DNA of 64,000 bases from Candidatus Saccharimonadota bacterium (lineage in GTDB: Bacteria > Patescibacteriota > Saccharimonadia > Saccharimonadales > Saccharimonadaceae), in assembly GCA_017516075.1 (NCBI GenBank), contig JAFWDS010000033.1, positions 1-64,000 of the forward strand, written 5' to 3'. A program made the position numbers and the translations under genes. Shown in pieces: positions 3,001 through 37,235 of this stretch (the stretch's first letter is position 1; each line of letters starts with the position of its first letter). A model generated the notes under the pieces. The model saw only the letters and a list, made by a program, of their open reading frames with translations. It did no database searches and was not told the DNA's origin.

Positions 3001-6000
3001 CGCCCATTCGCCAGAAGAAGTACTGGTAGGTAAGTGCCAGTTCTTAGGGCAGAGATCGCCACTAACATTGGTATTGGCGGATGTACTGAAGGTACCTTGG
3101 CCGGCAGTGGCGGTGTACCAGTTATAATAAACACCATATGAATACCAAGCAACATTATCTCCTGTGCCATTATAAGATTGAGTAAGGTTACGATTGAGAC
3201 TATTAGTATTATATTGAAGTTGATTGATGCATGAGGAATCATCATCTGTATTACAGAGAGCGTTGGATGAAGATGAGTTAGCGGCTGCAGCGGCGAAGCC
3301 GGAAGCTGGATTATGGGTATTCTGGCTGGTAATAGTAGCAGTGTTTGGCACTAGGCGGAGACTTTCAATGGTCCAACAATTATCGTCGGCAAGTTTCGCC
3401 ACAGCGTAGACATTGTCATCGCGAGTATCAGTAAGAGCGATAACGCTATTCTGAGTAAGAGTATTGCAGCCATTCCAGGACTGGAGAGTACCAGTGGGCG
3501 CTACCCATTTGGCATAGAGAGCGAGACCAGTACTGCTGATATCTGGAGTAGTAATGGTAGCATTTGGGCCATAGGGAGTAGCATTGGCGTCGGTAGCCCA
3601 GCCGGCGAAGCCATAGCCGGATTTAGAGTAGTTAGACGGGATGAGGGTGGCGCTGGAATTACTGGAGGCGGATTGATTGGCCATGGTGCCGCGGCCACCA
3701 CCTGTAACATCGGCGCCGTTGTCGTAGTAGCAGATTTTGCCGGATGGGCAGGAGTTTGCCGTATAGACGGCATAGAGAGTCTTGGTGGTTTCGGTGCCAG
3801 TACTGGTGATAGTAAGGGTGTCGCCAGAAATATAATCTATAGTACTACCTCCATTAGTTTCGGTCCAACCAGTGAAGGTGTAACCATAATATATAGGAGC
3901 GGAATTAGTGATAGTAAAATCGTGAGTGGCGTCGTAACTAGTGACTGTTTCAGAGTTTGGAGCGTCGGTACCGTTGCCGGCGTTGTAAACTAGTGTATAG
4001 GATAATTCGTTGGCTTCATGAGCAGTAAGACCCAGAGTGGCGGTGCCGGTGATAGTGTAGGTGGTGCTAGCACTAGTGGCACTACCGAGAGTTCCGTTTG
4101 CGGTGGTGGTCCAGGTATCTATAGTATAGCCAGTTTCATAGCTAGAAGTGAGAGTATATTCTACGCCACGGCGGAGATTGACTGTGCCGGTGTCGGAGGT
4201 GGTGGTGTCTTGGTTAATAACTGTTTGGGCGGGGTAATTAGCATTTGTGAAGCTGACGCTACTGACGTTGGTATCGAGATTCACGGTAACTTCATAGGAA
4301 GGAATTTCGGCGCCGGTGGCAGTGAGAGTGGCGTCGTCCGTGATAGTGTAGGTGGTGGGATTAGCGGAAGTGCTGCCGAGAGTGCCGGTTGAGGTAGTAG
4401 TCCAGTTAGATAATTCATAGCCAGAGGAAGTTGTGGCGGTGATAGTATATGGTGTGTTTTCGGCGATACTGACAGTGGGGTTACTAGGCGTAGCAGTTTC
4501 GGTGGGATAGCTATTATTCTCAAAAGATACGCCCGTAATACCGGTGCCGGCAAAATTAATCGTGACATTACTAAATGGAACATTGCCGCCCTGATAGATA
4601 CAGCGAACAGAGAAGTTGTCCCATTTGTTGTAGGTATTGACTGGGGTGATGGAACTAGCATTATAGCCCATACGATAGGCATTGCTATTGCTGCTAGCAG
4701 TAGCTTGCCAGAGACGACCTTGGGTGCCACGACCATCAGGATAATTGTTTTTAGGATTATAATCGCCGGAGTAAATGAAATTGTTAGGGTATTTACGGAT
4801 ATTGGTAGCGCCAGCACTACCGGTGCCACCGATGGCGGTAGTGAATGTATTGTATTCGCCGGAGCTACCGCCAGTTGGCAAGTGCCAGCCGGCTGGACAG
4901 ATATCACCCGCCATGGTGCCATCACTATTTGGACCGCTAGTAGTAGTAGTAGAATTGTAGGAACCGTGACCGGCAGTGGCGGTATACCAGTTGTACATGA
5001 TACCGTAGGAGTACCAAGCATTGGCGGTAGTGTTGCCAGTAGGAGATTGGGTGGCGGAACGATTTATGTTGCCAGCGTAATAATATATTTGATCGTCACA
5101 AGCTACACTATCACTACTACATTGGGAAGATGTAGGATTAGTGGAGGGAGCATCCGTTATAAAGGTAGAGGTAGGATTGTTGGTGTTATGGGCTGTAATG
5201 TTGGCGGTGCCAGGATTCAATCTGAGGTTTTCAACAATCCAGATTTTATTGTCGGCAAGCTTGGCAACGGTGTAAACTTCATCGTCGCGGTTGTCTTTCA
5301 GTGCGACAACGTCACCAACATTCATACTGGAGGCATTGGACCAAGATTGAAGAGTGTCAGAAGCTTTAATCCAGTGGGCAAAGAGAGTGAGGCCTGCAGT
5401 AGATAAATTACCTGGATTAATAGTTTGGTTGGGACCATAATTGGTGCCAGTGCCATCAGCCTCAGTATTCCAGCCGGCAAAACCATAGCCGCTTCGGTCG
5501 AAATTACTGGCGATAAGAACATTATTGGCATTGCTGGTAGCGGATTGGTTGGTCATGGTGCCACCATCGGCGTGGTTGTTATTGTAGCAGATGGTGTCGG
5601 CAGGACAATTGGCGACCCAGATGGCATAAAGAGTGACAAAACCAGATAGACCATCTCCGCCCATAGGAATTGTTTCGTTAGCGTAATAGTAATCACCGGT
5701 GCCATCAGCAGAGGTATTCCATTCCTTAAAGATGTAGCCGGTACGAGTGGGGCGTTTGTTGGATAGAGTGATGGTATTGTTGGTGGTGTCAGTGGTGTTA
5801 TCTGAGGTGGTTGGGAAATTGGCGATGGTACTATCGGTACCTTCTGAGCCGGCACCATCGAGGTTTTCATTAAATGAAACAATCGTAGAATCGGCGCAGG
5901 ATGGTGCAATCGTGAGGTAGTAATCTATAGTTCCATTATTTCCCATTGAATAACTACCAGGATTAAGGGCAGAATTGATTGAGGTGCCGTAATAAATTGA

Positions 6001-33272: not shown

Positions 33273-35036
33273 ATGAAATTATCAAATATAGCGCTAGGGG
33301 GAATGGTAGGTTTGATAGTGGTGGCTGGCGCGAGCCTTGCGTCGAACGTAGTAAAAGCAGATGATGTGATTGATGATGTTGCTATCACGATACCAGTATC
33401 ATGCACAATGACGGGGACGGGTCAGAATACGCATAGTGCCAATGTAACAAATGGTACATATGAGGATGATATCGGTACGACTACACTGAAAGTCCTCTGT
33501 AATGATAGCGAAGGATTCTCTATCTACGCGATAGGATTTACTGGCGACCAATACACTGGCGAGGATCACACCAAGCTAATTGGCGTGGCGAATAATCAAA
33601 AAATTGCCACGGGCACGGCGACGAGCGGAAGTGTGTCTAACTGGGCCATGAAATTAGAAACTGATGGTACGGCGACTTATGCATTAACGCTAGATAATGG
33701 ATTTGGTAGTTATAGCGCGGTACCAGATAGCTATACTAAGGTAGCACATAAAGATTCTGGTACGGATGTGGGGACGAGCGCGGTAGGGAGTACGCTTACG
33801 ACGACTTACGCATCTTTTATAGCGAGTAATCAGGTGGCGGATACATATAGTGGGAAAGTGAAATATACTATGGTGCATCCGGCGAGTGAAACACCGCTGC
33901 ATCCAGAGACTACTCAGGCTGGACAAATCTGCTATTATCCAAATGGCTCTAATGTAGAAGGCTCCATGGGGTGTCAGACTATTTCTGCTTCTGCCACTTC
34001 TGCCACACTGCTTGCCTCTAATTTTAGTCGCGAAGGCTATGGCTTTGCTGGCTGGAGTAAGACTTTTGATTATTCTGATACAACTGGCTACTTAGGTCCA
34101 CAAGAGACAATCACCTTCACGGCTGGTGAATATACTGGAGATAATCCTGGGCTTTCGCTTTATGCTAGGTGGATTAAATCTGCTGGCAGTCTCCAGGGAT
34201 GGACGGGTTGTAGTAGTTTAGCTTCAGGTGCAGTAACAGCCCTTACCGACCAGCGTGACAACCAAACCTACGCCATCGCTAAACTTGCCGACGGTAACTG
34301 CTGGATGATAGAAAACTTACGCCTAGAAAATACCGGTACCGACAACGCTAATGGCTCCCTCGCCCAAGGTTACGGCGGCCAGTTTGCTGGCCTTGCCGAC
34401 CCAGAAAACGCCTGGGCAAACAATATCACCACCGTCAACAGCCTATACAGCACCGATGGTTCTGATAGTACCATAAATATCGGTACCAGTAACGCTGGTT
34501 ACCGCTTCCCACGCTACAATCACGACAATACTAGCTCTAGAGCCTCCACCCCAACAGCTAATACTGTAGCAATGTACAGTTATGGTAACTACTACACTTG
34601 GGCAGCCGCTATTGCTGATACCACTGCCTATTCCAGCGGCGATTACAACACTACATCCATCTGTCCAACTGGCTGGAAGATTCCACTAGGTAATGCTAGT
34701 ACTGGTGACATAGAACAAGGCGCATCAGACGCAGCAAACAAAGTCACTGGCTTCTCATACTTAGACAGAAAAATGGGTGGTACTGGACAATCTCAATCCA
34801 CTGCAGCCGATTCTCTCCGTTGGCGTAAATACCCAGTAAATTTCGTCTATTCCGGCTACGTCAGCAGTGGTTCGGTGAGCAATCGTGGCTCGAGCGGCTA
34901 CTATTGGTCGTCTACGGCGAGCTCGTCTAGCCGCGCCTACTACTTGCTCCTGGATTATTCTAGCGTCAACCCAGGCACATACAACAACAACAAGCATTAC
35001 GGGAGGACAGTGCGCTGCGTCGCCTCTGGTAGCTAG
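33273..35036 (+). CDS. Secreted surface protein with InlB-type repeat and C-terminal Fib_succ_major domain
   Basis: 587 residues. A signal peptide covers about residues 1-30 (cleavage near VVKAD), then a beta-rich N-terminal domain (about 30-205), an InlB/Listeria-Bacteroides repeat (about 215-300, REGYGFAGW...LSLYARW), and one Fib_succ_major domain (about 310-587). The last domain is closely similar to the fourth domain of the giant protein at the left edge (shared TDQRDN, AKLADGNCWMIENLRLEN, MYSYGNYYTWAAAIADTT). It ends at TVRCVASGS. AAGGA sits 10 nt before the ATG, and TATAAT-like boxes lie at about 33240. It is likely a surface ligand-binding or attachment protein. The C-terminal 50 codons look hypervariable. 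Confidence 0.85.
   Translation: MKLSNIALGGMVGLIVVAGASLASNVVKADDVIDDVAITIPVSCTMTGTGQNTHSANVTNGTYEDDIGTTTLKVLCNDSEGFSIYAIGFTGDQYTGEDHTKLIGVANNQKIATGTATSGSVSNWAMKLETDGTATYALTLDNGFGSYSAVPDSYTKVAHKDSGTDVGTSAVGSTLTTTYASFIASNQVADTYSGKVKYTMVHPASETPLHPETTQAGQICYYPNGSNVEGSMGCQTISASATSATLLASNFSREGYGFAGWSKTFDYSDTTGYLGPQETITFTAGEYTGDNPGLSLYARWIKSAGSLQGWTGCSSLASGAVTALTDQRDNQTYAIAKLADGNCWMIENLRLENTGTDNANGSLAQGYGGQFAGLADPENAWANNITTVNSLYSTDGSDSTINIGTSNAGYRFPRYNHDNTSSRASTPTANTVAMYSYGNYYTWAAAIADTTAYSSGDYNTTSICPTGWKIPLGNASTGDIEQGASDAANKVTGFSYLDRKMGGTGQSQSTAADSLRWRKYPVNFVYSGYVSSGSVSNRGSSGYYWSSTASSSSRAYYLLLDYSSVNPGTYNNNKHYGRTVRCVASGS
34851..35033 (+). other. Candidate hypervariable (DGR-type) region at the C-terminus
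   Basis: This is the end of the Fib_succ domain. Within it the run TAC AAC AAC AAC AAG CAT is followed by the framework TAC GGG AGG and CGC TGC. Codons ending in C whose first two positions vary (AGC, TAC, CGC, AAC) dominate at sites where the paralogue differs. The segment is richer in GC than the domain body and is followed by inverted repeats at 35108-35168. The pattern matches adenine-specific mutagenesis of an AAC-rich template, but no template or reverse transcriptase is seen here. Confidence 0.4.
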
Positions 35037-35263: not shown

Positions 35264-36571
35264 ATGAGGATTTTGATAAAGAATGGGGAGCTGCTACTGG
35301 CAGAGGGGGAAGGATTTAAAGCGAAGAGGGGGAGTGTGGTGATTGGGGGGAAGAGGATAGAGAAGGTGGTTTTGGATGGGGAGGAAGTTAGCGGTGAGTT
35401 TGATAAGATAATTGATGCGGCGAATAAGCTAGTGATGCCAGGGCTCATCAATGCACATACGCATGCTTATATGAGTATATTTAAAAACTTCGCGGATGAT
35501 TTGGAGTTCTTTGATTGGTTGCACAAGGTGGAAGAAGTGGAAGATAAGATGAGCGCAGAAGACTGCTACTGGACGAGTTTGCTCTCAATTGCGGAGATGA
35601 TAAGGACTGGGACGACTTGTTTTGTAGATATGTGTATGCGGAGTAAAGTAGTGTCGGAAGCGGCGCGAAAAAGTGGGATGAGAGCGTTTATCGGCAGGGG
35701 GCTAGTGAAAGAGGCGGATGATCCGGAAGCGCTCCGGCGATTAAATGAGTTTTTGGAAGATGCGGAGATGAATACTGATAGCGATAGGGTGAAGTTTATC
35801 TTGGCGCCGCATGCGCCGTATTCGAGTCCGCAGAGTTTGCTTCGACTAGTGCGAGAGACTGGCTTCAAAAGAAACATGATGGCGACGATTCATATGTCAG
35901 AATCGCAAGCAGAAGTGGAAGGAATTGCGGCGGAGCAAGATGGAAAGACGCCAGTGGAGTTTGTGGCGGAGACGGGGTTGTTTGACCTGCCGACCATTGG
36001 GGCACATCTAGTCAAGGCGACAGATAAAGATATTGAGATTTTGAAGGAAAAAGGGGTGAGCGTAGCGATAAATCCGCGAAGTAATATGAAGCTAGGAAAT
36101 GGGTTTGCGCCGGTTTCTAAGATGCTGGAGGCTGGGGTGAATGTGTGCCTCGGGACAGATGGGAGCGGCAGTAACAATACGCAGAATATGTTCCAGGAGA
36201 TGAATTTTGCAAGTTTGGTATATAAGGGAGATGAGAAAAAAGCGAAATGCGTGGATGCGAGTGAAGTGGTGAAGTTTGCGACAATAAACGGAGCAAAGGC
36301 GCTGCAGATGGAAGGTGAAATAGGGGAGATTTCTGAGGGGGCGCTGGCGGATATAATAGTGTTAGATTTAGAGGTGCCGGAGTTTGTGCCAAGGAATGAT
36401 TTGGTGAGTGCATTATGTTATAGTGCGAATGGTTCGGAAGTGGTGACGACGATAGTAAATGGGGAAGTATTGATGGAGGATAAGAAGATTTTGACGTTTA
36501 ATGAAAGTGAAGTGTTTGAAAAATGTACTGAAATAGCAGAAAGATTGGGGATGAATGGCTTGGAAAAATGA
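35264..36571 (+). CDS. Amidohydrolase, MTA/SAH deaminase-like (MtaD/SsnA group)
   Basis: 435 residues. Features of the TIM-barrel metal-dependent hydrolases: MPGLINAHTHAYMS (metal HxH), a PHAPYSSPQSL segment, IHMSESQAEVE (HxxE), GAHLVKATD, and CLGTDGSGSNNTQNM (metal Asp). This set is typical of 5'-methylthioadenosine/S-adenosylhomocysteine deaminases and related nucleoside or guanine deaminases. It overlaps the methyltransferase gene by 17 bp, which would make sense if it clears the SAH that enzyme produces. AGGAG lies upstream of the ATG. Confidence 0.85.
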   Translation: MRILIKNGELLLAEGEGFKAKRGSVVIGGKRIEKVVLDGEEVSGEFDKIIDAANKLVMPGLINAHTHAYMSIFKNFADDLEFFDWLHKVEEVEDKMSAEDCYWTSLLSIAEMIRTGTTCFVDMCMRSKVVSEAARKSGMRAFIGRGLVKEADDPEALRRLNEFLEDAEMNTDSDRVKFILAPHAPYSSPQSLLRLVRETGFKRNMMATIHMSESQAEVEGIAAEQDGKTPVEFVAETGLFDLPTIGAHLVKATDKDIEILKEKGVSVAINPRSNMKLGNGFAPVSKMLEAGVNVCLGTDGSGSNNTQNMFQEMNFASLVYKGDEKKAKCVDASEVVKFATINGAKALQMEGEIGEISEGALADIIVLDLEVPEFVPRNDLVSALCYSANGSEVVTTIVNGEVLMEDKKILTFNESEVFEKCTEIAERLGMNGLEK

Positions 36572-37235
36572 TCAAGTTAATGAAAAGGAAACTGCGCGGA
36601 TTTTGGAGCTCGCGAGGGCTTGTGTAAAAGTGCCTGGAGACTTTGTGGAAATGGGGTGTTATAGGGGAGACACTTCACTAATTTTGGCTGAGATGCTTCA
36701 GCGCGACGCTAGGCTTCGTGAGAAGGTGCGTTGCTCAGTCGACGTACGACGAAGTACGTCTCCTTCCGCTACTCCTTCTTCCTCGCCTAGCATTTACGCT
36801 GAAGCATCTCAGGAGCTTGGTGGAAAAGATGCGAAAAAGTTGTGGATTTATGACTCGTTTGAAGGGTTGCCGGAGAAAAAGGAAGTAGATAAGTCGGTGA
36901 TGGGGGTATTGTTTCGGAGTGGAGAGCTGGCGGCGACAAAGAGAGAAGTGAAAGAGAGGTTTTTGCGCGCCAATTTGCCGGTACCAAGGATAAAAAAAGC
37001 GTGGTTTAGCGATTTGACGCCAGAAGATATGCCAGAGAAAATTGCATTTGCGTTTTTAGATGGAGATTTTTATGAATCGATTAGGGATTCTTTGAGACTG
37101 GTGACGCCAAGGATGAGCGACGAGGGGATATTAGTTGTGCACGATTATACAAATCCGGCTCTTCCTGGGGTAAAACGAGCGGTAGATGAGTGGAATAATA
37201 GGGAAAAATATAGTTTTGAGGTAATTTTATTATAA
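36555..37235 (+). CDS. TylF/MycF-like SAM-dependent methyltransferase carrying a palindromic insert
   Basis: 226 residues. The methyltransferase core is clear: FVEMGCYRGDTSLILAEML (motif I), then LWIYDSFEGLPEKKEVD, WFSDLTPEDMPEKIAFAFLDGD, and GILVVHDYTNPALPGVKRAVDEW. Between motif I and the second strand, residues about 45-86 are replaced by an Arg/Ser/Pro-rich stretch encoded by a 125-bp imperfect palindrome. In relatives this loop is short. The frame stays open throughout, so the protein is probably still made with an extra surface loop; activity cannot be judged from sequence. The natural substrate is unknown. Confidence 0.8.
   Translation: MAWKNDQVNEKETARILELARACVKVPGDFVEMGCYRGDTSLILAEMLQRDARLREKVRCSVDVRRSTSPSATPSSSPSIYAEASQELGGKDAKKLWIYDSFEGLPEKKEVDKSVMGVLFRSGELAATKREVKERFLRANLPVPRIKKAWFSDLTPEDMPEKIAFAFLDGDFYESIRDSLRLVTPRMSDEGILVVHDYTNPALPGVKRAVDEWNNREKYSFEVILL
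36688..36812. repeat. 125-bp palindromic element inserted in frame in a methyltransferase gene
   Basis: The outer arms are a perfect 16-bp inverted repeat, CTGAGATGCTTCAGCG (36688-36703) against 36797-36812. A second pair, GCTAGGC (36708-36714) and GCCTAGC (36785-36791), and a central hairpin GACGTAC (36741-36747), 6-nt loop, GTACGTC (36754-36760), share the same centre near 36750. The whole could fold as one long hairpin. It resembles the palindromic elements found within Rickettsia coding genes in organisation, not in sequence. Confidence 0.75.

Follow-up and report, generated by a model that had tools for sequence, protein, structure and literature searches.

The Rickettsia palindromic elements (RPEs) and their counterparts in Wolbachia are dispersed palindromes of ~100–150 bp that encode no enzyme and are translated as in-frame inserts of essential genes unrelated to one another; the RPEs are described as possessing terminal inverted repeats of their own, of 12 bp (PMC2229807), and for neither the RPEs nor the Wolbachia elements have arms obtained from the target at insertion been reported. 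YPAL, from Yersinia, is a small mobile palindrome that occurs at dyad-symmetric sites and can be in frame. The miniature elements of the MITE type—Correia/NEMIS, RUP, and ERIC—are likewise small, non-autonomous, and hairpin-forming, with some in-frame gene fusions, and carry conserved terminal inverted repeats that match a transposon together with direct target duplications. The REP/BIME sequences with their RAYT and the IS200/IS605 (HUH) elements, for their part, have a hairpin that is recognised in single-stranded form, are tied to one replication strand, and use a Y1 transposase; to our knowledge, none of them makes an inverted copy of its flank, and the insertion mechanisms that we know of leave either direct target duplications or none. 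Finally, in template-switch (quasipalindrome) mutations, which are favoured on the leading strand in Escherichia coli, the nascent strand copies itself by fold-back to give a perfect inverted repeat, without any conserved mobile core or fixed length.

The locus considered here lies in a window of 64,000 nt, by which we mean the whole stretch of DNA analysed, and had originally been predicted to be a palindrome made up of three nested inverted repeats with one common centre, inserted in frame in a methyltransferase gene. All three repeats were present where they had been placed, between 36688 and 36812, their centres falling within 1 nt of each other, and the reading frame of the gene stays open across the element. 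The features are as follows.

36555..37235, + strand: host gene, encoding a TylF-like methyltransferase of 226 aa (Pfam TylF, 2.7e-24)
36688-36703 / 36797-36812: outer arms, 16 of 16 positions paired
36688..36706, + strand: left arm, sequence native to the gene, 16 bp perfectly paired and then 3 nt that include a 2-nt mismatch
36707..36793, + strand: mobile core of ~87 nt, conserved through the element family; its stems in this copy are GCTAGGC/GCCTAGC, AGAAG/CTTCT, and GACGTAC/GTACGTC, with conserved unpaired TC-rich loops between them
36708-36714 / 36785-36791: middle arms, inverted repeat
36741-36747 / 36754-36760: apical stem, inverted repeat
36741..36760, + strand: apical hairpin, GACGTAC-gacgaa-GTACGTC
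36794..36812, + strand: right arm, inverted copy of the left arm, not in relatives, translated as IYAEASQ

The outer arms, proposed to be perfect over 16 bp, are so over that length, but the full arm extends to 19 nt and includes one 2-nt mismatch. Nothing else in the window combines inverted arms of at least 16 with a spacer of 60–130, and 60 first-order Markov randomisations of the window yielded no such repeat. The encoded segment was absent from 29 relatives, as the original prediction had held for the family, although the linker is naturally variable there; in the AlphaFold model the insert lies in a low-confidence loop that follows the first long helix (39-63) and precedes the next strand, at 96. 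The left arm encodes AEMLQRD, of which the AEML part is conserved in the methyltransferase family, and the right arm is new DNA synthesised upon insertion. The apical loop of this copy has 6 nt versus the usual 5, and the frame shifts at that extra base. In the relatives (L022-L034) the linker is hypervariable and often built of TGTGGAAAA / TGTGGATAA units, which look like DnaA boxes within coding sequence; the upstream neighbour (window positions 33273-35036) encodes a large protein, rich in Ser/Thr/Gly, that looks secreted and whose N-terminus resembles a signal peptide.

The suggestion of a new family of in-frame palindromes in the CPR was borne out by the many in-frame copies in other genes and by the element-free sites in relatives; neither did relatives carry the segment as ordinary protein devoid of inverted repeats, nor was the palindrome a solitary sequence of old origin. 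The 16-bp arms, which had been recommended as the probe for finding the family, would have been useless for that purpose because they are unique to each copy, the inner core alone being shared. The genome containing the window (924 kb) has four copies. An exact core pattern run over 85,000 species matched 19 contigs, all from Candidatus Saccharibacteria and largely from goat, sheep, roe deer, and yak gut assemblies. With a covariance model of the core, the element was found in 69 of the 174 genomes of the genus, at up to 20 copies each; in 135/393 genomes and 76/152 genera of the class Saccharimonadia; and in 44/380 genomes of a CPR phylum sample, 35 of those 44 lying outside Saccharimonadia, where—the model being rich in base pairs—weak distant matches may be other hairpins; the strong distant matches that were read share the core CGCATTGCTGCGTC...TTGCTCGCTCACCGTA...TACGGCTCGCTCCGCTACTC...TTCCTTGCATTGCATC. 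Phage, plasmid, and viral collections gave no match to the element, and no curated RNA family of Rfam 15 matched it, a single sub-threshold chance match falling elsewhere.

Several copies depart from the common form. Those at L127 (3726-3877) and L130 (2667-2818) are in-frame variants of 152 nt with an enlarged apex, that at L137 (7384-7466) is an 83-nt copy with an internal deletion, and the one in the ParB gene at L197 is a decayed remnant that has kept its arms. Clustering is strong at L120 (G089 C34, ~10 kb), where five copies fall within 10 kb and four of the five lie inside a single IleRS gene or immediately ahead of it. The copies at L217, L218, and L224, in different genomes outside Saccharimonadia, have arms of similar sequence, ~TAGGACTTACGCGTTTGG, and may have hit one kind of target.

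The genic copies lie mostly in frame in housekeeping genes, the hosts including IleRS, ValRS, ArgRS, PyrG, PolA, DnaG, ParB, MurE, MurG, and MiaA-like proteins, which names were assigned by sequence recognition and in part tested. Most sense copies are read in one common frame of the core, encoding ...SADALLAHRTSSTARSATPASS..., and ADALLA-RTSSTARSATPAS is the predicted peptide of an element-bearing product. The same permissive loops were targeted more than once, and the insert is tolerated by essential genes, just as the RPEs are (PMC2229807); frame-preserving copies in the tolerant loops of essential proteins would be the ones that survive, as with the RPEs. Neither a cargo nor a benefit to the host is evident for the element.

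The two outer arms are complementary to one another in almost all of the copies examined, and are nonetheless unlike the arms of any other copy. Complementarity scores ran from 5 to 18 in 35 early copies, compared with a control mean of 5.2 and a control maximum of 10; in 95 copies the pairing was ~0.9 by the core and dropped to ~0.25 past 18 nt, the modal arm end being at 17–18 nt. Two copies of a recent pair, situated 340 bp apart at one locus, have cores 93% identical and arms only 33% so, the similarity breaking sharply at the ends of the core. Copy-specific arms and sharp core boundaries together indicate that the mobile unit is the ~87-nt core and that the arms are gained at the site; conserved terminal repeats were accordingly rejected as a feature of the family. 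Among 105 copies, no excess of direct repeats was found at the ends of either the core or the arms, such as a direct target duplication would leave. The base directly before the core is G in 79%, and insertion favours a G at that position.

Which of the two arms is native was decided by the empty sites of ParB and PolA. The empty ParB of the relative G142 reads ...VVIEED-GK-YVIV, and the filled one of G089 reads IVTYKE, the core, and then APSKQQ-YIII; in G080 a decayed insertion occupies that codon, its arms matching G080's own gene; the PolA of G142 is LAKQAS-ASDYE, and that of G089 is LARQAV, the core, and then PTADAP-EKWE. In both empty genes the homologue of the left arm is present and the right arm absent, so that the 5' arm is native and the 3' arm new. 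Furthermore, in all 25 sense gene insertions compared with empty homologues the left-arm peptide fitted better than the right-arm peptide (sign test, 6e-8), though some of those sites, such as the ones in IleRS, are non-independent; the three antisense insertions gave the opposite sign twice and a near tie once. The empty sites come from relatives, the nearest being ~76–78% identical in DNA. PyrG homologues were discarded as an arbiter because the loop is too variable. We consequently hold it as nearly certain that the product of insertion—well supported as it is—consists of the core followed by an inverted copy of the ~17–18 nt lying just 5' of it, which event, repeated at each insertion, gives every copy perfect arms of its own.

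The orientation of the copies was then compared with GC skew, a proxy for replication direction that partly mirrors gene orientation. Skew was positive on the core-forward strand at 60 of the 68 copies that lie outside long reading frames and, in a wider context, at 52/59 copies, or 33/37 when each locus is counted once; at L240, L253, and L248, where most genes run in the opposite sense, core orientation still tracks the skew. The core-forward strand is therefore usually the G-rich (leading) strand, and as the newly made arm occupies the 3' side in that strand, fold-back on the leading strand would yield the observed polarity.

On balance, and as slightly more likely than not, we interpret the whole as a mobile hairpin element of CPR bacteria, non-autonomous and inserted by replication-coupled fold-back. 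During leading-strand replication, a growing 3' end terminating in the 5' flank would pick up the core, either by copying another genomic copy or by the joining of a single-stranded DNA or cDNA hairpin; the acquired core would fold into its hairpin, the folded 3' end would prime synthesis on the last ~17 nt of its own strand to form the right arm, and that end would then go back to its template. Fold-back priming of nascent leading strands, with preference for that strand, is established in E. coli (PMC6357072). The internal loops of the core are non-palindromic, hence the right half of the core is not simply a copy of the left.

The narrow arm length of 17–18 nt is explained by a step that an enzyme defines no less well than by free fold-back synthesis, and an enzyme-driven single-strand integration with inverted target-site duplication is a possible, if less probable, alternative. 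A hairpin intermediate, of ssDNA or cDNA, would be joined at a nick in the target by a dedicated integrase or reverse transcriptase, and the right arm would come from a second nick ~17 nt away or from limited fill-in. Such a route would fit the sharp arms, the G preference at −1, and the defined ends of the core, as well as the strand bias, which is that expected for single-strand transposition on the lagging-strand template. The families searched for in the genomes of the genus were Y1 and RVT_1. A Y1 transposase was present in 8 of the 174, none of them copy-rich, which absence tells against this route and led us to reject an IS200/RAYT (Y1, HUH) transposase as the driver. Reverse transcriptases of the type found in diversity-generating retroelements (DGRs) were commoner in carriers (54/69 element-bearing versus 44/105 other genomes; OR 5, p 2e-6, uncorrected for phylogeny), but no RVT_1 was detected in the genome of the window nor in 14 other carriers, whereas G142 has three and no copy of the element; thus a reverse transcriptase is associated, yet the data do not require one as the driver. 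Two of the three reverse transcriptases examined resemble DGR enzymes, with an Avd-like neighbour; at L214 and L216 the reverse transcriptases have an Avd-like ORF of ~150 aa upstream, as in those retroelements.

If, instead, the element inserted into hairpins or palindromes that already existed, as dyad symmetry is described to be the target of YPAL (PMC2229807), both arms would be old, and the outer ends of the two arms do look like native codons at some PyrG sites. Those short matches could, however, represent microhomology for the return of the end to its template, and with the right arm missing from the empty ParB and PolA sites and the left arm the better fit at every sense site, we consider this explanation very improbable. 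Somewhat less remote, though still improbable, is the view that the arms were made after insertion, by palindrome correction through template switching or by selection for an RNA hairpin, in which circumstance their complementarity would be uninformative about insertion. Template switching can create, maintain, and repair hairpins (PMC8794818), and the stem changes between close copies were 106 double Watson–Crick versus 30 one-sided; together with the few G-U pairs in the core stems, this predominance suggests DNA-level pairing or correction in the core, where palindrome correction may well act. That view, nevertheless, explains neither the fixed arm length nor the absence of the right arm from empty sites, and the arms of the IleRS insertion common to G080 and G089 were inherited by descent and are already decaying. 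A chance palindrome or an assembly artefact can be practically dismissed: the genomes are mostly metagenome assemblies, but hundreds of copies occur in independent assemblies from varied hosts and classes, with their open reading frames kept.

Compared with the described systems, then, the CPR element is, like the RPEs, a dispersed in-frame palindrome of ~100–150 bp in unrelated genes, but it belongs to another phylum and differs from those elements, as they are described, in having copy-specific, target-copied arms in place of family-wide terminal inverted repeats. Unlike the MITEs, it has neither conserved terminal inverted repeats nor direct target-site duplications; with template-switch mutations it shares an inverted copy of the adjacent flank missing from the ancestor, and its strong strand bias by the GC-skew proxy may correspond to their leading-strand preference, but it has in addition a conserved core and a fixed length; and whereas the dyad is the reported target of YPAL, here one arm is absent before insertion. 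In the open-access literature we found no report of palindromic elements in the CPR and no description of an element with inverted, fixed-length target copies.

A second, unrelated family of palindromic inserts was also observed in the genus, with the core ...AAAAATGTCATAC.CTGG...CGTCAGGAATATACATTTTT... and long copy-specific arms (20–28 bp in several copies), in 14/118 genomes; its loci are L196 (G079 IleRS, minus strand near 2085-2103 and 3621-3639), L257, L260-L262, and L265. A second core with copy-specific arms would point to a machinery common to both families.

We give about even chances to an element class in which an inverted copy of the ~17–18 nt of 5' flank replaces the direct duplication, coupled to leading-strand replication. 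If true, then with copy-specific arms on no fewer than two unrelated cores in these bacteria, a general CPR machinery would be inserting hairpins into genes and so adding segments of ~35–40 residues to essential proteins. An inverted target copy of fixed length implies a chemistry of joining that is either different or replication-coupled; in the element, a type of mutation, fold-back template switching, would become an agent that spreads. The element also shows how palindromes can arise already fully paired. Many essential proteins of the CPR bear translated selfish inserts, which presence affects annotation and structure prediction, and for bacteria that are difficult to cultivate, the element offers a natural record of the direction of replication and of how forks behave.
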